A stretch of DNA of 59,681 nucleotides from Verrucomicrobiota bacterium. Lineage in GTDB: Bacteria; Verrucomicrobiota; Verrucomicrobiia; Palsa-1439. The translations under genes were made by a program, and so were the position numbers. The notes beneath the pieces are model-generated. The model searched no databases, had not been told where the DNA came from, and saw only the letters and a program-made list of their open reading frames with translations. Shown piece by piece: positions 5,447-52,092 of the stretch (the stretch's first letter is position 1; each line of letters starts with the position of its first letter). The stretch spans positions 1 through 59,681 of the forward strand of contig VHCW01000018.1 of assembly GCA_016871575.1 (NCBI GenBank), in the 5' to 3' direction.

Positions 5447-7810
5447 CTAACCCAGCACCGTCAATGTGCCACTCGTGACGCCCAGTTGGTCTGCGACTTT
5501 TAACCTACGCGCCAGTTCGACGGCGCGCAATTGCCCGGCCAGCAACGCCCGATAGCTTTCCAGCGTCAAGCGGGTTTGCGCAGCATCTTCGTGGAGCAAT
5601 TCAAACCGAAAGGTTCGTGCGCCGGCTTCCGTAAACCGTTTCGCCCACTCCGCGCCGCTTTGCGCCAGCGCGTGAAACACTGTGTTGCGGCAGCCGACAT
5701 CCGCCTGCACCGGATGCCGCGCGCCGACGCGATCGCGCAACTCCACCTTGTGCCGCTCACACGGACGCCCGCAGTTTGTCGAGTCGGTTCCGCCAGTGAG
5801 GAATGCCGCAAACAGGCAGTGCTCCATGTGAAACATCGGCAGATGTTGGTGAATCACCACTTCAAACCACTCCGGCGGCGCGCTCCGCAACAGCGACAAC
5901 ACTTGATCGCCGTTGAGGTCATACGACACCGTAATCCGCTCCAACCCGGCGCGAATCAACAATTCCGCCGACAGCGCATTGACCACATTCAGCGAATAGT
6001 CCCCCACCCTTCTCCCCAGCCATTCGATGCTGCCGAGACTCCGAACGAGGATGCCGTCACCCTGCGAAATTGTTTTCAACAAACCCTGCTCACCGGGTTT
6101 TAGAATGCGCGGTGTTGCGAGAAAAAGCTCCGCCCGATTGCGCGCCAGCGTCACCGCGTCCGCATACCGGCGAACATCCTCAAAATCCGCGTACACCGTC
6201 GCGCAGCCAACCTCAAGCGCCGCAGCAAGCTGTTCCATCGTCCGGCAGAGTGCGATGAGTTGCGGTTTCTTGTCCGTGCTGTAGCTGCGAGCCTCCTCGC
6301 GGCAGCTTGTGATCAGCGCCGTCTTGTGCGGGCCGCGAGCAGGCTCGCGGCTACAGACCGGCAGTTTCGCAATTAGTTCCCGTCGCAACCGGTTCAACTC
6401 GCTCACCGGCAATATGACTTGTCCGACCAGCTCGTTGCGCAGTTCACCGAGAACAAACGGCGTGTCCCCCAGCCGTCCCAGTTGATCGCGCAGCGCCGTC
6501 TCTGTCAGCGGCCGCTTGAACGCCGTCTGCAACGCCATCTGCGAATGAACACGCACAGCACCGCACTCAATCGTCAACGGGCGGTCCGCCGCGCCTCGGA
6601 CCACCAAGTCAATCGGTCGCCGGGCCAACGGAATCTCCCCGGCAAATGTACGACGCAGTTCCTTTTCCAGATGCGGGTCGCTTGTCTTCCAAAAGCGGTC
6701 ACCGGGCTTAAGCGCTTGAAAATCTATCTTGCCCCGCTCGAAGTACAAACTCGCGCCCCGCACTTCCCAAACCCGGCCGCCTTGTTCTTTCTCACCCTCG
6801 AACAAGATGCCGTCGCCAGCCCGGACCGCGCAGCGCATCTCCACTTCGACGTGATCGAACGATACATTCCGAATCTCGCCGACCAGCGGCCCGCGTTTCG
6901 TCCCGAACCGTCCCTTCACCAACTCCTGATGGTTCACCCCGTGGAGCCAGCCCGTATGGAGGCCGCGCGAGAATGCCATCTCCAGTTTGTACCAGTCCTC
7001 CTGTGTGGCCATTGCGCCGTCAATCGCCTTGCGATACACCTGCGTCGTTGCCGCCACATATTCCGGTGATTTCAGTCGTCCCTCGATCTTGAACGCTGAG
7101 ACGCCAAGTCGGATCAACTCCGGAATCTCCCGTACTGCGGCGAGGTCCTGGGGTGAAAGCAGATACCGGCGGTCACCCAGATCTTTTATAGCGCCATCCA
7201 CCACCAGTTCATACGGCAACCGGCAGGCAGCGGCGCATTCGCCGCGATTGGCGCTGCGCTGGCCAAGTGCCTCGCTGGTCAGGCACTGACCAGAGTACGC
7301 CACACAGAGCGCGCCGTGGACAAACACCTCCAACTCCATCACAGCCGGATCAAACTTCGCCAACTCGCGCAAAGCCAGTTCGCGGGCAAGCACGACGCGT
7401 TTGATGCCGAGTCGCGCGATAAACTTCACGGCCTCAGGATTCGCGATGGTCATCTGCGTCGAGGCGTGAATCTCCATCCGCAGACCGAGCCGTTGCGCCA
7501 GCGTCGCGACACCCAAGTCCTGCACCATCACGGCGTCCACACTGGCGGCGTCGAGCAGAAGCAACTCGCGTTCAGCCTCAGCCAGTTCGTGTGGGAACAC
7601 GAGGATGTTCAGCACCGCAATCGCGCGACGATTTCGCTCATGGAGAAAACCCACCAATTCCGGCAACTGTTCCGCTGTGAAATTGTCCGCCCGCATCCGT
7701 GCGTTGAACCGCGGCAGGCCGAAATAGACGGCGTCCGCGCCGTTGGCGACAGCGGCGCGGGCGCACTCCAAGTTGCCGGCGGGAGCGACCAGTTCGGGTT
7801 TGCCGTTCAC
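5447..7810 (-). CDS. U32-family peptidase / RlhA-like rRNA hydroxylase relative
   Basis: This protein of about 787 residues has two U32-type halves. The first shows the signature EVFVHGALCVAYSGQC, with four cysteines near residues 169, 176, 192 and 196 that in UbiU, TrhP and RlhA bind a 4Fe-4S cluster. The second half keeps a cysteine set around TDSTNCGRPC. Length and the middle DUF3656-like region match RlhA (YdcP), which hydroxylates C2501 of 23S rRNA, rather than a protease. The start is uncertain: GTG 7810 places conserved KPELVAPAGN right after the start, while ATG 7876 would add 22 residues and overlap the divergent gene. A palindromic repeat (6279-6356) lies in frame between the halves. 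Confidence 0.8.
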   Translation of the reverse strand: MNGKPELVAPAGNLECARAAVANGADAVYFGLPRFNARMRADNFTAEQLPELVGFLHERNRRAIAVLNILVFPHELAEAERELLLLDAASVDAVMVQDLGVATLAQRLGLRMEIHASTQMTIANPEAVKFIARLGIKRVVLARELALRELAKFDPAVMELEVFVHGALCVAYSGQCLTSEALGQRSANRGECAAACRLPYELVVDGAIKDLGDRRYLLSPQDLAAVREIPELIRLGVSAFKIEGRLKSPEYVAATTQVYRKAIDGAMATQEDWYKLEMAFSRGLHTGWLHGVNHQELVKGRFGTKRGPLVGEIRNVSFDHVEVEMRCAVRAGDGILFEGEKEQGGRVWEVRGASLYFERGKIDFQALKPGDRFWKTSDPHLEKELRRTFAGEIPLARRPIDLVVRGAADRPLTIECGAVRVHSQMALQTAFKRPLTETALRDQLGRLGDTPFVLGELRNELVGQVILPVSELNRLRRELIAKLPVCSREPARGPHKTALITSCREEARSYSTDKKPQLIALCRTMEQLAAALEVGCATVYADFEDVRRYADAVTLARNRAELFLATPRILKPGEQGLLKTISQGDGILVRSLGSIEWLGRRVGDYSLNVVNALSAELLIRAGLERITVSYDLNGDQVLSLLRSAPPEWFEVVIHQHLPMFHMEHCLFAAFLTGGTDSTNCGRPCERHKVELRDRVGARHPVQADVGCRNTVFHALAQSGAEWAKRFTEAGARTFRFELLHEDAAQTRLTLESYRALLAGQLRAVELARRLKVADQLGVTSGTLTVLG
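6279..6356. repeat. Palindromic REP-like pair inside the U32 coding sequence
   Basis: Two inverted copies of a 25-bp palindrome lie about 28 nt apart. The right copy (6332-6356) is itself a perfect 9-2-9 hairpin built on GCCGCGAGC, followed by TACAG. The left copy (6279-6303) is its reverse complement with two mismatches. The same unit recurs at 9795-9819 and, in altered form, at 51632-51655. The copy here adds residues such as SREPARG and SCREEARSYS to the U32 protein without breaking the frame. Confidence 0.8.
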
Positions 7811-7838
7811 GGGCGGAACGGTAACACAGTTGTTCGGA

Positions 7839-7867
7839 TTGCCAAGCCAGTGCTTTTGCGGTACGCT
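7839..7867 (+). promoter_or_regulatory. Putative promoter of the coiled-coil protein gene
   Basis: TTGCCA at 7839-7844 and TACGCT at 7862-7867 are separated by 17 nt, and the -10 ends 7 nt before the ATG at 7875. Transcription would start almost at the start codon, giving a leaderless mRNA; no Shine-Dalgarno motif is visible. The -10 match is weak (3 of 6). Confidence 0.4.
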
Positions 7868-7874
7868 TTTGCCC

Positions 7875-9656
7875 ATGAAACAATTTCTCGTTCTTGCCTT
7901 TCTACTGGCCTGCGCATCGGACGCACTGTTCGCGGCGGACGATCCCGGCGCGCAATACGTGGATGCGTTCCTGTTGATTCAAGAAGGCGATGCCGCGAGG
8001 GCAAAGTCGGACTGGAAAACCGCTTATACGAAGCTCACCGCCGCCCAGCATATCCTGCTTGAGATCCGAGAGAAATCCCCCGCTTGGAATGCGCATCTCA
8101 TCCAATTCCGTCTGGAACACTGCCTGGAACAACTTGACGCCATCAAGCCGAACCTTGCGCCATCAGGAAGCGGACTTTCCGCCACGTTTGTGGCGCCGCC
8201 CAAACGAGGCGCTGACTCCACGGAGGTTCGCCAACTGCGCGCCGACCTCGCGGATGCGATGAACCAAATCGAAGCGTTGAAGCGCGAATTGCAGAACGCA
8301 AAGACAACCGCGACACCAGAGGCCGCCGAACTGGATCGTCTTCGCACCCAGTTGGCCGAGGCAAAGACCGAGATGGAACGCAGCAAGGCAGCCCACTTGA
8401 CCGCTCAGGCAACGCTCAACAAGAAAGAGGCAGACGAAGCCGCCCGCATGGCGGAAGTCAACCAGAAGATCGCCGAACTCCAGAAACAGGCCAGCGACCG
8501 CAACCGCAAACTCGAAGAAATGGAAAAGCTTCGCGCCGATCTCAACGCGGCAAACACACGCGCCGGCAACCTCGCCCGCCAGAACAAACAGCTTGCCGCC
8601 CAGCTCGGCGACGCCAAGAGCGCCGCCGAACGCGCCAACATGACCGCTGCGGAACTGAAAGCGGCGCAGCAGGCAAATGCGGATTTGCAGGCGCAGTTGA
8701 CCGAGGCGAAACGCCTCGCAGGAACCGGGTCGCGCGATGTTCAGGCCTTGCGCGCGGAACTGATGGAAGCGCGCGCCACCGCTGACCGGTCCATCCGTCA
8801 ACAGTCAACACAACTGGAACAATTGAGAAAGGAAAACCAGACACTCGCCCTGCAATTGGCGGATTCCAAGCGCGCCACCGCCGCCGATTCCGCTGCGTCC
8901 GCAGAACTTCAGGTTCTGCGCAGCGAACTGGCAGCCGCCCGCACCGACACGGAGCGCGCACGCGCACTCAACGCCAGCCAGCTTGAGGCATGGCAGCGCG
9001 AACGCGCCAGCCTGCTGGCGCGCGCCCCCGATGGCGACAGGCAGTCGCCTGTTTCTTCTGAGCGCAACAGGGGAGTCATCTACGCCAAATCGCCGGGCGC
9101 CGGCAACACGATCATTGACGAAACGTTGCAGCGGCAGAACAGGGAGCTTTCCGAGCAGTTGTCCAGCACCACCCGCCAACTGGAAAAGCTGCGCGCACAA
9201 CTTGCCGCTGACGCGCGCGCCAATACCACGCGCAACCGCAAATTCAGCGATGAACTTTCACTGTTGAAAGACCAGAACAGCGACCTCGCCCGCCAACTCG
9301 CCGAGGCGCGTCCCGCAGACGGCAACCGCGGCGTGCTGTACCGCAAATCTTCTTACACGCCGCGAAGCGAATCACAATCCCGGCTGGAAAAGGAAAACGA
9401 GCGGCTCGCCGCGCAACTGTCCGACGCTCGCCGCCAAGTCAGCACGCTTCGCAGCGAACTGACGGCAAAAGACAAAACTCTGACCGTCACCGCCGCCCCC
9501 GACACAGGCAAGAAGGAGTTGGAGCTTCAAATGCAACGATTGCGCGAGGAGAACGGGCTCTTGCGCCAGTTGTTGAACCGCTACGCTCCGCAGCATCCCG
9601 AACTGAAGCGCGAGGCTACCGGTCGCTCTATCTCGCTGTCGCCGCGCAAACCGTAA
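7875..9656 (+). CDS. Secreted coiled-coil protein
   Basis: This 593-residue protein has a signal peptide (MKQFLVLAFLLACASDALFA). An N-terminal helical, TPR-like region (about 25-105, with AQYVDAFLLIQEGDAA and YTKLTAAQHILLEI) precedes a very long Ala/Glu/Arg/Gln-rich coiled coil from about residue 120 to 570, with many A-E-L-x-R-L heptads. It should be periplasmic or surface-located and elongated, perhaps a structural or scaffold protein. A similar phrase (RGVxYxKS) occurs twice (RGVIYAKS, RGVLYRKS). ATG 7875 is chosen because the signal peptide starts there. No enzymatic domain is visible and the exact role is unknown. Confidence 0.7.
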   Translation: MKQFLVLAFLLACASDALFAADDPGAQYVDAFLLIQEGDAARAKSDWKTAYTKLTAAQHILLEIREKSPAWNAHLIQFRLEHCLEQLDAIKPNLAPSGSGLSATFVAPPKRGADSTEVRQLRADLADAMNQIEALKRELQNAKTTATPEAAELDRLRTQLAEAKTEMERSKAAHLTAQATLNKKEADEAARMAEVNQKIAELQKQASDRNRKLEEMEKLRADLNAANTRAGNLARQNKQLAAQLGDAKSAAERANMTAAELKAAQQANADLQAQLTEAKRLAGTGSRDVQALRAELMEARATADRSIRQQSTQLEQLRKENQTLALQLADSKRATAADSAASAELQVLRSELAAARTDTERARALNASQLEAWQRERASLLARAPDGDRQSPVSSERNRGVIYAKSPGAGNTIIDETLQRQNRELSEQLSSTTRQLEKLRAQLAADARANTTRNRKFSDELSLLKDQNSDLARQLAEARPADGNRGVLYRKSSYTPRSESQSRLEKENERLAAQLSDARRQVSTLRSELTAKDKTLTVTAAPDTGKKELELQMQRLREENGLLRQLLNRYAPQHPELKREATGRSISLSPRKP

Positions 9657-9820
9657 CCGGGCTGTCGCCGCGCTCCTTGTCCGGCGCAGGTCTCTGACCG
9701 CGCCGTTCCTATGACCGAAGGTCTCCGCACTGCGATGGAAATCCGCGATCAGCCAATTGTCCGCAGTCGGGAGACCCGCGCACAACCGAGGATTGCCGCG
9801 AACAGGCTCGCGGCTACAGT
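9657..9820. repeat. Intergenic stretch made of dispersed palindromic repeat pieces
   Basis: Between the convergent coiled-coil and DUF1080 genes lie several repeat pieces. One is the GTCGGGAGACCC unit at 9766-9786, which reappears at 32850-32870. Another is the palindrome GCCGCGAACAGGCTCGCGGC with a TACAG tail at 9795-9819, matching the copies at 6332-6356. GGTCTCTGACC and GGTCTCCGCAC near 9690-9730 look like further decayed copies. No gene is visible here; the hairpins may also end transcription from both sides. Confidence 0.6.
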
Positions 9821-10561
9821 TCACCGCGCCGGTAATGTGCGAATCCAGATGTTGCGGTAACGAACCGGATTCTTGTGATCCTGTAGGATCAGCGGCCCTT
9901 CCGTGGCTTCCCCGCGCAGTTCGACGTTGTCCTGAATCAGAATCCCGTTGTGAACGACGGTCACGCTCGCCGATACAGTCATTTTGCCTTGGGCATCAAA
10001 ACGCGGTTGCCGCAGCGTAATGTGATAACTCTGCCATTCGCCGGGTTTGCGACAGGCGTTGACCAATGGCGGATACATTGCGTAAATCGCGCCCGCTTGA
10101 CCGTCGGGATAGGTGTCGTTCTCATAGGAGTCGAGAACTTGGACTTCTTGGTGCCCGGGTAGAAACACGCCGCTGTTGCCGCGCCCCTGCCCCTTGCCGC
10201 TGACCTCGACTGGCGTGGCCCATTCAATGTGAATTTCGCAGTCACCGAATTTCTCCTTGCTAGCGATCGTGCCGCCTTTCGGAACGATTTCCATGTAGCC
10301 ATTCTCAACCTTCCACTTCGGCTCAGGTGATTTGTCCGCGTCCTTCGGGCCGGGGCGGCGCACCCATTTCGAGAGGTCTTTCCCGTCAAACAGCACAATC
10401 GCATTTGGTGGCGGGGGTCTCATTTCACCGGGTTTCGGCGCACCGGGATCAACCACCTTCGGACGCGGCCGGTTCATGTCCTTCGGTTTCCACGTCTGCT
10501 TGGGTTCAGCGCCGAGTGCAAACGACGCACTTAGTAAGCCTGCCAGAAGAAAGATTTTCAT
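9821..10561 (-). CDS. Secreted DUF1080 protein (3-keto-disaccharide hydrolase-like)
   Basis: This 246-residue protein has a signal peptide (MKIFLLAGLLSASFALGA). A proline-rich linker leads into a concanavalin-like DUF1080 domain from about residue 55, marked by VLFDGKDLSKWVRR, the SKEKFGDCEIHIEWATP strand, GRGNSGVFLPG, a Y-x-N-D-T-Y-P-D-G-Q-x-G-A-I-Y loop and the closing GPLILQDHKNPVRYRNIWIR. Some DUF1080 proteins hydrolyse 3-keto-glycosides; others are only inferred to bind glycans. Multiple secreted copies per genome are typical of Planctomycetes and Verrucomicrobia. It is divergent from the PIG-L gene. A TATCAT hexamer 8 nt upstream of the ATG could be its -10 box. Confidence 0.85.
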   Translation of the reverse strand: MKIFLLAGLLSASFALGAEPKQTWKPKDMNRPRPKVVDPGAPKPGEMRPPPPNAIVLFDGKDLSKWVRRPGPKDADKSPEPKWKVENGYMEIVPKGGTIASKEKFGDCEIHIEWATPVEVSGKGQGRGNSGVFLPGHQEVQVLDSYENDTYPDGQAGAIYAMYPPLVNACRKPGEWQSYHITLRQPRFDAQGKMTVSASVTVVHNGILIQDNVELRGEATEGPLILQDHKNPVRYRNIWIRTLPAR

Positions 10562-12327: not shown

Positions 12328-12389
12328 AGGAACGCCGCCGTCTCGGCGGTCGCAATCCAGCACGAAACCGCCGGGACGGCGGCGTTCCT
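12328..12389. repeat. Strong hairpin with 23-bp arms
   Basis: Arms at 12328-12350 and 12367-12389 are inverted copies with one mismatch (AGGAACGCCGCCGT core), around a 16-nt loop. The arms also contain shorter internal palindromes (CCGCCG...CGGCGG). The element sits at the broken edge of the alpha-galactosidase fragment and looks like a mobile palindromic repeat rather than a terminator, because no T-run follows. Confidence 0.85.
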
Positions 12390-12426
12390 GCCCCACACAT
12401 CGAACTGCGCTTGTTCACCCGCGCCA

Positions 12427-32743: not shown

Positions 32744-32760
32744 GTCGTCAGCAAAGTTCT

Positions 32761-32812
32761 CCTCACGCTCCGCGTGAGGTTCATGCCTGCCAACATCACG
32801 CGGAGCGTGATG
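32761..32812. repeat. Pair of inverted 19-bp palindromes
   Basis: CCTCACGCTCCGCGTGAGG (32761-32779) and CATCACGCGGAGCGTGATG (32794-32812) are each perfect 8-3-8 hairpins, and they are inverted copies of one another over their centre. This is the arrangement of paired REP elements. They lie in the non-coding scar upstream of rnhB. Confidence 0.75.
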
Positions 32813-49309: not shown

Positions 49310-50398
49310 TTACTCCGGCGACACGATGCGCGGTAGTAGGGCGCGCATTTCCGTGGCAAGCTGCTCGGCCGGCAGCACCCAACTGCCGAGCGACGCCCGG
49401 TGTTGCAGATTCCGAGAGGTAGTCGTCAGCGCCTCCGTCACCGTGGCGCCAAGTCTCATTGAAAGAATGACCAACACGTACTGCACCATCAGCAGCCGGT
49501 AGCCGGCCAGCACCGAGATGTCTTCGTCGCGCCATCGCCCGAAGTAACATTTCCCAAACAACGCCTGCAGCAGGAACCGCCGCAGCATCGCCTCCGCGTC
49601 GTTGTCGAACGTCACGTTCGGCAGCGCGGCCAACTCGGCAAACGTCACCGAACGCCCGTTGATCTCCAATCGTCGTTGCAGCACCGACACCACAAGCGGG
49701 CCGACAAATGCCGCGGAAGTCGTTGTTTGCAGGAACGCTTGCGCGCAGAGGCCTAGAATCGCGCGCTGCCGCCAGTTCAACGCGTCCACCGGCAGCGGGT
49801 CGCCGGGCGGGACGACCCCCGTCAACAATCCTTCCCCGGCAAGCAACGCCGGCCAGAGCGGTCCCACGATGGCCGCGCGAATGCGTTCCTCCAGGGCGAG
49901 GTAATCAGCCCAGCTTGTCCGTTTCGTGTCCGTCAATGCCACGTCCGCGCCCTGTTCGCGGTCGGGGCCGAGGCGTTCGCACAACGCAGCAAGTTCATCG
50001 CGCGTCTCGCCAAGTTCGCGACCGGAGTTCTCACACGCGCCGACACTGGCATACGAAAGACTCACATAAACGCCGGTGGGCGTCCGCACAAACTGATACG
50101 GGAACCGCTGGCATGTGGCCGGTTTGGCTTCTGCTCCGAAATGTTTGTGAATCAGGCAAAGCTTGTCCTCGCCAAGGAACCTGCACAATCCCGACGGTTG
50201 CAGCCCCAGCAGCGTTCGCGCACCGTCTTGACGGAAGAACTCATCGCGCGGCGGCGCGCCGGGCACCTGGCCCCAATCGAATTGCTCCAGACGCTCTTTC
50301 TCCGCCGCGTTGACCTCGATCCCCCATTGCCGGCAGCAACGGCCGCAGCAGGTGCAACTGAAGCGCAGCCCCGGCAACAACTGCAACGCGTCGTTCAC
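49310..50398 (-). CDS. YkgJ-family cysteine cluster protein
   Basis: This is a 362-residue protein with an N-terminal cysteine cluster: FSCTCCGRCCRQWGIEV, then GLCRFLGEDKLCLIHKHFG and PATCQRFPYQ. This pattern (about eight cysteines) is the YkgJ/Fe-S-or-zinc cluster family, which often binds an iron-sulfur or zinc cluster of unknown use. The C-terminal 250 residues are helical and hydrophobic in part (LQALFGKCYFGRW, LLMVQYVLVILSM). The start is GTG 50398, overlapping the lnt stop (GTGA); a longer frame would overlap lnt by 49 nt. It is probably translated together with lnt. Confidence 0.78.
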   Translation of the reverse strand: MNDALQLLPGLRFSCTCCGRCCRQWGIEVNAAEKERLEQFDWGQVPGAPPRDEFFRQDGARTLLGLQPSGLCRFLGEDKLCLIHKHFGAEAKPATCQRFPYQFVRTPTGVYVSLSYASVGACENSGRELGETRDELAALCERLGPDREQGADVALTDTKRTSWADYLALEERIRAAIVGPLWPALLAGEGLLTGVVPPGDPLPVDALNWRQRAILGLCAQAFLQTTTSAAFVGPLVVSVLQRRLEINGRSVTFAELAALPNVTFDNDAEAMLRRFLLQALFGKCYFGRWRDEDISVLAGYRLLMVQYVLVILSMRLGATVTEALTTTSRNLQHRASLGSWVLPAEQLATEMRALLPRIVSPE

Positions 50399-51942
50399 GG
50401 TTGCGATTCCCTTTGCCGCAAACGCCAAACCATCCAGCCGCAAGCCAGCGAACTGATCAGCGCGCAGGCAGCCACAAACCAGTCGCCGTGCTGAACGTAG
50501 AACGTGTGCGCGTTACTGCTTACCAGCGGAACCGTGCAGACCAGCAGTCCTTCTTGATGCGCCGGGAGCCGGCGTTCGGGCTTGATGTAACCGAACTCGT
50601 CCACGACGCACGTCACGCCGTTGTTCGTGCAGCGGACCAGCGGACGACGCGTCTCGACGGCGCGAAACACGGCATTCGCCAGATGCATCTCGGCAGCCGG
50701 TGATTCCTTGAACCAGGCATCGTTGGTCAGGTTCACCATGAAATCCGCGCCGCGACGGACAAACTGCCGGTAGAGATCGGGAAGCGTGTCCTCAAAACAA
50801 ATCACCGCGCCGAAGCGGGTCGCACCCAGTGCGAGCAGACTGACGGTGTTGCCGCGCTCAAAACTGCCGTCAATCGGCGTCAGCCATTTCATCACCGGCA
50901 AAATCTTCCGCAGCGGCACGTACTCGCCGAACGCGACGAGATGAATCTTGTGATACAGCCCGGCGATCTTGCCGTCGGGATGCACCAACGCCGCGGCGTT
51001 GAACCAGTCTGAGCCGACGACATCCATCGTACCGGTGAGCAACGGCGCATTGGCGAGCGCCACCAGGTTCGAGACGAGACGGTAGGATTCCAAATCGTAC
51101 CGCAACGCGCCCGGTGTGGCCGTTTCCGGCCAGATGACCAGATCGGGTTTCAGCAACGCGGCCTTCTCCGTCAAGGCGCGGTACCGCTCCTCAATCATCG
51201 GTTTCTCGGTCGGATCGAATTTCACCTGCTGCGGAATGTTCCCTTGAATCAGCGCGACCCGCAGCCCCGGCACTGCGTCATCGTCACCCCGCAGCAATTT
51301 CAGCCCGTTGACAAAAGTGACGCACACCAAGGCCACGGCAGCGTACAATTCCCAACTCAGCCGCCGCGCCGGTTCATCGTTGCTCCGCAAATGCACGAAC
51401 CGTCGGATGGTAAAAAAGATGGCGAAGTTGACAAAGCAGACGAGCGCCGAGACGCCGTACACCCCGGTGACGCTGGCGATTTGGATGATGGGCAGGGTCT
51501 GGTGCTGGCTCACGCCCAGCCCGTTCCAGCCGAATCCGCCGAAGATGATTTTGCCGCGCACCCACTCCAGCGTCACCCACCACGCGGTCCCCACAACGGC
51601 CAGCAACAGATTCCGCAACGCCGAATCTCTGGCCGCAAGCCTGCTCGCGGCAAGAGAGAAGATCATCGCCGCGACCCCGAAGTACATCGCCAGCGCCGCA
51701 ATCAGTCCGACCGTCCCGGCAACGGTCACATGAATCGTCCACCAGACCGTCATCCCGAAGAAGACCAATCCCGCCAGCCACCCCCGGCGAAAGGCCGGCC
51801 AACGGTCGCTGCGCTCCAACGCAAACAACAACGGCACCAGCGCAATCCATGCACATTCCGCCCGGTTGAACGGCGGGTACGCCAGCGCCAGCAAGAGGCC
51901 GGATACGGCCGGCAACAACCAACTGTAAAGCAGCGATTTCAC
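50395..51942 (-). CDS. lnt: Apolipoprotein N-acyltransferase
   Basis: This 515-residue inner-membrane enzyme adds the third acyl chain to lipoproteins. The N-terminal half has about six helices, and the C-terminal half is a nitrilase domain with the catalytic triad: E273 in IWPETATP, K332 in LYHKIHLVAFGEYVP and C382 in VICFEDTLP. The start is GTG 51942 (VKSLLYSWLLPAVSG). The frame stays open upstream, but that part is the intergenic repeat (51951-52091) and not conserved protein. A palindromic repeat lies inside the gene near residue 100. Its presence fits the many lipoproteins seen here. Confidence 0.93.
   Translation of the reverse strand: MKSLLYSWLLPAVSGLLLALAYPPFNRAECAWIALVPLLFALERSDRWPAFRRGWLAGLVFFGMTVWWTIHVTVAGTVGLIAALAMYFGVAAMIFSLAASRLAARDSALRNLLLAVVGTAWWVTLEWVRGKIIFGGFGWNGLGVSQHQTLPIIQIASVTGVYGVSALVCFVNFAIFFTIRRFVHLRSNDEPARRLSWELYAAVALVCVTFVNGLKLLRGDDDAVPGLRVALIQGNIPQQVKFDPTEKPMIEERYRALTEKAALLKPDLVIWPETATPGALRYDLESYRLVSNLVALANAPLLTGTMDVVGSDWFNAAALVHPDGKIAGLYHKIHLVAFGEYVPLRKILPVMKWLTPIDGSFERGNTVSLLALGATRFGAVICFEDTLPDLYRQFVRRGADFMVNLTNDAWFKESPAAEMHLANAVFRAVETRRPLVRCTNNGVTCVVDEFGYIKPERRLPAHQEGLLVCTVPLVSSNAHTFYVQHGDWFVAACALISSLACGWMVWRLRQRESQP
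51632..51655. repeat. Altered REP-like palindrome inside lnt
   Basis: GCCGCAAGCCTGCTCGCGGC followed by AAGA is a near-palindrome and the reverse complement of the family at 6332-6356 and 9795-9819 with a few changes. It encodes the LAASRLAARDS segment of the Lnt membrane domain. Confidence 0.6.
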
Positions 51943-51950
51943 ACGGACAA

Positions 51951-52091
51951 TAAATCCGAAATCCGAAATCCGAAGCACGAAACAAGCACGAAATCCGAAT
52001 AACCAAAACCTTCGAAGCGGGAAAATGGCTTTTTTGAATTTGCCGTCATTCGGGTTTGTTTCGGATTTCGAGATTCGAGCTTCGGATTTCT
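51951..52091. repeat. Imperfect inverted repeat between lnt and secA
   Basis: The left arm (about 51951-52000) repeats AAATCCGAAATCCGAAGCACGAAA-type units, and the right arm (about 52046-52091) is its inverted relative (TTTCGGATTTCGAGATTCGAG, CTTCGGATTT split across the line). Between them lies an A/T-rich stretch with a T6 run. The element is unlike the neighbouring coding DNA in base composition. It fills the whole gap between the secA stop and the lnt start and could fold as a large hairpin. Confidence 0.65.
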
Positions 52092-52092
52092 C

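Follow-up and report, generated by a model that had tools for sequence, protein, structure and literature searches.

A GTAG-type REP doublet lies in frame within a U32 peptidase gene

The window, by which we mean the whole stretch of 59,681 nucleotides that was analyzed, contains a gene for a U32 peptidase whose reading frame runs through a pair of inverted palindromes. Two single units of the same palindrome lie elsewhere in the window. The features concerned are the following:

5447..7876, minus strand: gene for a U32 peptidase/DUF3656 protein of 809 aa, with a match to Peptidase_U32 and DUF3656; TrhP-like models remain below the cut-off
6254..6379, minus strand: variable interdomain linker (residues 500-541), which contains the doublet; residues 508-520 and 523-529 have a pLDDT < 50
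6279..6356, minus strand: REPIN-like doublet of GTAG-type REPs (CTGTAG...CTACAG), which encodes, in frame, residues ~507-533 of the U32 protein (VCSREPARGPHKTALITSCREEARSYS)
6281..6302, plus strand: REP unit A, GTAG + CTGCGAGCCTCCTCGCGG, with 2 mismatches to the family core
6333..6354, minus strand: REP unit B, GTAG + CCGCGAGCCTGCTCGCGG on the minus strand, with a perfect core
9791..9817, minus strand: lone REP unit in an intergenic region, 4 bases beyond the 3' end of gene 9821-10561 (minus strand)
51632..51655, minus strand: single REP unit without GTAG in lnt (ORF 50398-52092), at residues about 145-154, probably decayed

The sequence at 6279-6356 reads CTGTAG-CTGCGAGCCTCCTCGCGG ... CCGCGAGCAGGCTCGCGG-CTACAG and consists of two inverted copies of GTAG-CCGCGAGC-(CT)-GCTCGCGG, with the GTAG on the outer sides. 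Each unit is composed of GTAG, an 8-bp stem, and a 2-base loop. The palindromic cores occupy 6285-6302 and 6333-6350, and are bordered by GTAG at 6281-6284 and CTAC at 6351-6354. The initial annotation had described a REP-like palindrome pair in frame within the U32 gene, and the inverted cores, the GTAG/CTAC ends, and the open frame from 5447 to 7876 on the minus strand all bear this out.

While a generic repeat search gave nothing at this site, a script detected the inverted pair with an inverted-repeat score of 19, compared to maxima of 10-14 when the whole window was dinucleotide-shuffled 20 times. In addition, the window contains 10 matches to the core pattern (at most 3 mismatches, both strands counted), against a shuffle mean of 2.43. 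These shuffle scores and pattern counts rule out a palindrome that arose by chance. Two other strong inverted repeats were seen in the window, at 12329-12391 (score 20) and 32759-32812 (score 17), which have different REP-like sequences.

The doublet belongs to a dispersed family

The source genome (G000) is an assembly of 5.19 Mb in 257 contigs, 95% complete. A search for the core pattern returned 85 strand hits; the reversed pattern, used as a control, returned 10. The places were fetched, and a unit was counted if it fitted CCGCGAGC[AC][GT]GCTCGCGG within 2 mismatches; hits with 1-2 mismatches and another center (e.g., C145:7059) were taken as chance and left out, and C80 was fetched and failed. 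This genome-wide count yielded 30 units: 8 stand alone and the others form 11 inverted doublets, whose spacers measure 20-30 bp. The left end is TGTAG in 10 of the 11 doublets and the right end CTACA in 9 of 11. The family combines a GTAG beside a short palindrome (8-bp stem) with dispersed copies that include inverted doublets, which are the hallmarks of GTAG REPs and REPINs. Across the 11 doublets, 36 of 66 reading frames are open.

Within the window, copies had also been placed at 9795 and 51632; both are there, the one in lnt lacking its GTAG. The same core is abundant in genomes of the same taxonomic family (G002 and G006), and the same-genus genome G001 has one matching place. Among the viral contigs scanned for the 22-base unit, only L346 matched, and no RAYT motif was seen on it. 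On this contig, the unit (L346:9837-9858) supplies the hydrophobic core of a start that resembles a signal peptide (MTTRFCIVAASLLAAFL).

The doublet stands in for a native interdomain linker

Homology flanks the doublet on both sides within the single open frame of the U32 gene, and the nearest named homologs carry the labels Spartobacteria, Verrucomicrobiales, and Verrucomicrobia, on which basis we place the source genome in Verrucomicrobiota. In a first alignment, for which 30 of 41 matching genomes were read, none of the 29 relatives had the residues encoded by the doublet, while a linker of other sequence was present in all 29. Two outcomes that would have spoken against a mobile element, the same residues with changed DNA in relatives and a genome without further copies, both failed to appear.

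The pair had also been thought to add about 26 residues to the protein. The doublet does encode roughly this number, but as judged from the aligned sequences it has replaced the native linker, and the protein is not longer by 26 residues. Specifically, the linker measures 41 residues here, 36 in the same-genus G001, and 43 as the median of 138 homologs from the class without an inverted repeat of score >=12. Because a length of 41 is normal by these standards, the doublet stands in for the native linker, and a net insertion of 26 residues was rejected. Seven linkers from the class that do have an inverted repeat of score >=12 span 40-59 residues, which does not set them apart from the other 138 (Mann-Whitney p = 0.20). 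The U32 protein of the nearest relative is 79% identical, and its linker resists confident alignment. The relatives compared offered no empty site flanked by identical sequence, and no target duplication or insertion intermediate is visible at the doublet.

No relative of the U32 protein was found in the PDB. An AlphaFold2 model built from 29 sequences had a mean pLDDT of 82.6, and its low-confidence stretches at residues 508-520 and 523-529 are flanked by a helix (up to residue 504) and a strand (from residue 539). The model thus suggests that the insert encoded by the doublet is probably a disordered linker, although it is not the sole such stretch, as residues 192-211 also have a pLDDT <50. 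In three relatives (L063, L064, and L067), the linker contains AATGCGG-like direct repeats, which are not palindromes.

Copies of the doublet lie in frame within other conserved genes

Four of the 19 elements in the genome are read in frame and have homologous sequence to either side; they are in the genes for the U32 protein, alanyl-tRNA synthetase (AlaRS), a beta-helix/CBM protein, and lnt. Several others lie in ORFs of doubtful reality. The two further doublets in this group are:

L017, residues 502-525: doublet in AlaRS, in frame
L020, residues 1014-1038: doublet in the beta-helix/CBM protein, between Beta_helix (713-903) and CBM (1071-1199)

At the AlaRS site, VV-EAVSPA-EGEFSI in relatives has become VV-VAASLLAADDAKPEEPRAGSRLQ-EKEWQI, with 23 codons in and about 6 out. 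A comparable insertion is absent from 17 of 18 aligned AlaRS homologs, and the 18th (L092) has a shorter, unrelated one of ~13 residues. The doublet sits between two parts of the enzyme, as PDB matches of the first part end by residue 472 and the match to 3wqy begins at 532; we take these parts to be the catalytic/tRNA part and the editing part. The U32 and AlaRS doublets are read in different frames, giving CSREPARG in the former and VAASLLAA in the latter. Since the peptide sequences differ, no one peptide has been selected. At the REP unit in lnt, the nearest homolog is ~4 residues shorter. The earlier proposal of a mobile palindrome tolerated as a peptide finds support in the 30 genomic units, in the in-frame copies within at least 2 more conserved genes, and in the absence of the sequence from relatives.

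In L019, L028, and L029, the REP unit precedes the first recognized domain, which leaves the true start of these ORFs unclear, while in L025 the GTAG of a unit provides the stop codon of a radical-SAM ORF. The N-terminal 50 codons of the lnt ORF (window 51943-52092, SEARISKSETNPND...) resemble another dispersed repeat and lie upstream of the homologous start; a similar stretch was seen in contig 103 of G000 and in G002. The AlaRS of the same-genus G001 (L097) has large insertions elsewhere, in an open frame of 1061 aa.

Unrelated palindromic repeats recur in the same U32 linker

Other palindromes were found at the same place in the U32 genes of other genomes: a different GTAG doublet in L066, a pair of GTGGGAGGGGCC... 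in L065, and a pair of ACCCACCCCCGG... in L056. This contrast between the linker and the rest of the gene was first spotted on the U32 gene of the window and its first 29 relatives. The survey covered 231 loci, with 30 from the first search, 80 from named genomes, and 121 from a search of the class, of which 224 were kept after 7 near-duplicates were dropped. The class search used the matches listed among 207 matching genomes, plus G045, and genes split by large inserts are therefore under-sampled. Inverted repeats were scored in 150-base windows, with control windows from the same genes.

An inverted-repeat score >=16 was reached by 8 of 224 linkers and 4 of 3260 control windows, an enrichment of ~30-fold (Fisher 1e-7; because the sequences are related, this and the following p-values are only a guide). 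At a score >=12, the counts were 11/224 and 15/3260. At >=16, the difference persisted without the U32 gene of the window (7/223 linkers, 4/3246 controls; p = 1.1e-6), in the 194 genes that were not part of the exploratory 30 (4/194, 3/2825; p = 5e-4), and in the class set alone (2/115, 0/1658; p = 0.004). Three of the 4 strong control windows (L202, L207, and L066) also resemble repeat elements by eye.

Five families of linker repeats are multi-copy in their own genomes, including the one described here (30 units in G000). The L066 family has 47 copies in G013 and none in G000, G005, or G052 (reversed-pattern control 1); the L065 family has 24 in G044 (control 0) and is present in all six other genomes tested; and the L056 family has 10 in G005 and none in six others. 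A family common to L168 and L325 reaches 205 copies in G265 and 194 in G066 (controls 0); L168 and L315, the latter of G265, are near-duplicates. These counts cover five families, with the linker repeats of L166, L340, L311, L165, and L133 outside them. L133, a weaker linker match, is interrupted by a stop codon at another point of its matched range.

Probable transposition and tolerance at a permissive linker

These observations are best read as the transposition of a REPIN followed by tolerance at a permissive linker, a reading that we consider highly probable. The GTAG REP doublet would be a small non-autonomous element, of the kind moved via single-stranded DNA by REP-associated tyrosine transposases (RAYTs). 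It would have inserted into the U32 interdomain linker after the species split from its nearest sampled relative, and the native linker codons would have been lost at insertion or later, so that the linker kept a normal length. The copy presumably survived because the frame stayed open and the disordered linker accepts almost any sequence, in a protein that presumably still works. The same tolerance would account for the unrelated palindromic repeats that occupy this linker in other lineages.

The initial annotation had also suggested looking for a REP-associated tyrosine transposase. RAYT genes are present in the genome: L037 (91.7 bits), L038 (100.1 bits), and L039 (84.5 bits) exceed the RAYT cut-off (NF047646, 80). 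All three have an HxH motif and flanking GTAG REPs, the sequence of which is other than that of the doublet. We examined 17 Y1_Tnp loci in four genomes, all fragmented assemblies (9 of G000 and 8 of G001, G002, and G006), and none was flanked by the doublet's REP (GTAGCCGCGAGCCTGCTCGCGG). Transposition of the doublet by a RAYT is therefore something we infer.

Recurrence at one site could also reflect an insertion bias, if the U32 linker attracts REP and similar elements, e.g., through lagging-strand hairpins or cleavage dinucleotides. The enrichment at score 16 would fit such a preference, as would the CT/CA dinucleotides at which TnpAREP cuts according to the part of PMC8266576 considered here. 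However, the families involved are unrelated, and not all have GTAG ends; the linker lacks conserved DNA; and the doublet also lies between domains in AlaRS and the CBM protein. As tolerance alone predicts the same pattern, we regard target preference as unlikely.

Considerably less probable is retention of the hairpin for a role in the mRNA between two protein domains, such as translation pausing or stability. By sequence alone, the doublet could form two hairpins or one long one, and REPs are thought to act at the RNA level (PMC3733652, in the parts covered), but inverted repeats of score >=12 are confined to 11 of the 224 linkers, and the left unit of the doublet departs from the family core by 2 mismatches. 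An artefact of assembly or binning is slightly less probable again: although the 257 contigs and 95% completeness indicate a fragmented assembly, in which repeats promote misjoins, homology continues on both sides in one frame in both U32 and AlaRS, and separate genomes (e.g., G006, G013, and G044) have doublets as well, of this family or another. Selection on the residues themselves, with an incidental palindromic look, would fit the open frame and normal linker length, but is contradicted by the 30 genomic units, the two different frames used, and the unrelated residues in relatives, leaving it next to no likelihood.

Under transposition followed by tolerance, the repeated filling of one U32 linker by unrelated mobile palindromes, in Verrucomicrobiota and Planctomycetota, serves as a naturally run saturation experiment for how well proteins tolerate insertions. 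It points to elements that often land in genes and come to notice only where the protein can bear them. For annotators, it is a caution that variable linkers may be recent mobile DNA.

Comparison with known palindromic elements

REPINs, which Bertels and Rainey are said to have described in 2011, reportedly consist of two inverted REPs with a spacer and are dispersed through the genome. They are mostly extragenic. The family described here shares the inverted pair, the spacer, and the dispersal, at a small copy number.

The initial annotation had likened the doublet to the RPE elements of Rickettsia, in another phylum. The likeness holds for the in-frame palindrome in conserved genes, which RPE-1, RPE-4, and RPE-6 share with the doublet in U32 and AlaRS. 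In contrast to RPE-4 and RPE-6, which the covered parts of PMC3733652 assign to the CGTC class, the doublet has GTAG ends and no CGTC tag, and differs in phylum and sequence. Nor is it the first such case outside Rickettsia. The same parts of that 2013 paper describe GTAG REPs with dimers and intragenic copies coding for 20-30 aa, the intragenic ones being most frequent in Opitutus terrae, a verrucomicrobium, so the idea of in-gene palindromes outside Rickettsia was already in print for this phylum. As described there, these elements resemble the doublet in their GTAG end, 6-9 bp stem, inverted dimers, spacers of at least 20 bp, some in-frame copies, and phylum, a likeness of described features rather than of catalogue sequences. 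The words U32, peptidase, and alanyl are absent from the main text of PMC3733652, whose supplementary list could include U32, and the parts covered do not describe linker replacement or the recurrence of unrelated repeats at one site. A literature search found no paper on the U32 linker as a host of repeats, and for intragenic REPs and REPINs the foremost match was PMC3733652 itself. New here is that this linker is filled by unrelated palindromic repeats in other lineages.

The GTAG, stem, and perfect palindrome also fit what the covered part of PMC8266576 gives for TnpAREP recognition, especially of the Stenotrophomonas type. In the Stenotrophomonas REPtron, GTAG is likewise followed by a perfect 8-bp stem that closes on a tiny loop; its cognate transposase is known, whereas none was found for the doublet's REP in the 17 loci.

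RAYT genes in one frame with conserved enzymes

Three Y1_Tnp genes were seen in one frame with a conserved enzyme:

L039:1351-2535, plus strand: RAYT-TrpF, on G000 contig 33, with RAYT and REPs between the trpF start codon and the TrpF body
L123:1258-3114, minus strand: CinA-RAYT, on G002 contig 69, with CinA leading into REP-RAYT-REP at its natural stop
L040:376-1821, plus strand: D-Tyr-tRNA deacylase-Y1_Tnp (RAYT-like), on G000 contig 68, with REP-like sequence after the full domain; the Y1_Tnp domain is barely above the cut-off

These are 3 of 7 small RAYT-type loci, i.e., the 17 Y1_Tnp loci minus 9 longer genes and one IS200-like. One sixth would be expected to share strand and frame with the enzyme, and as 3 of 7 is not beyond chance (binomial tail ~0.10), we claim no selection for the fusions. 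We offer only tentatively the idea that the REP system of this clade resides in conserved genes at two scales, with doublets serving as replaceable linkers and whole REP-RAYT-REP modules inserting at the very ends of housekeeping genes, where they would be read as an in-frame extension at either end of the enzyme. Were this general, a transposase lacking start signals of its own would ride on host translation, and the host would have to keep the frame; should such fusions be translated, they would give RAYTs a new means of being expressed and retained. No report of RAYT-enzyme fusions was found in a search of titles and abstracts, and one survey (PMC6006769, as far as covered) discarded unexpectedly long proteins as gene fusions or annotation errors.

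In L039, the stop of trpC overlaps the next start codon as ATGA. The ORF that opens at this overlap encodes MTSPHD, a REP, the RAYT, a second REP, and then TrpF, beginning with its first strand; a TrpB-like ORF with a PALP domain comes next. The RAYT of L039 matches the TnpArep of PDB 4er8 (E 2e-8), and a GTG inside the second REP is a possible internal start. In L123, the joint falls where CinA normally ends, as the CinA of four relatives stops within a few residues of it.
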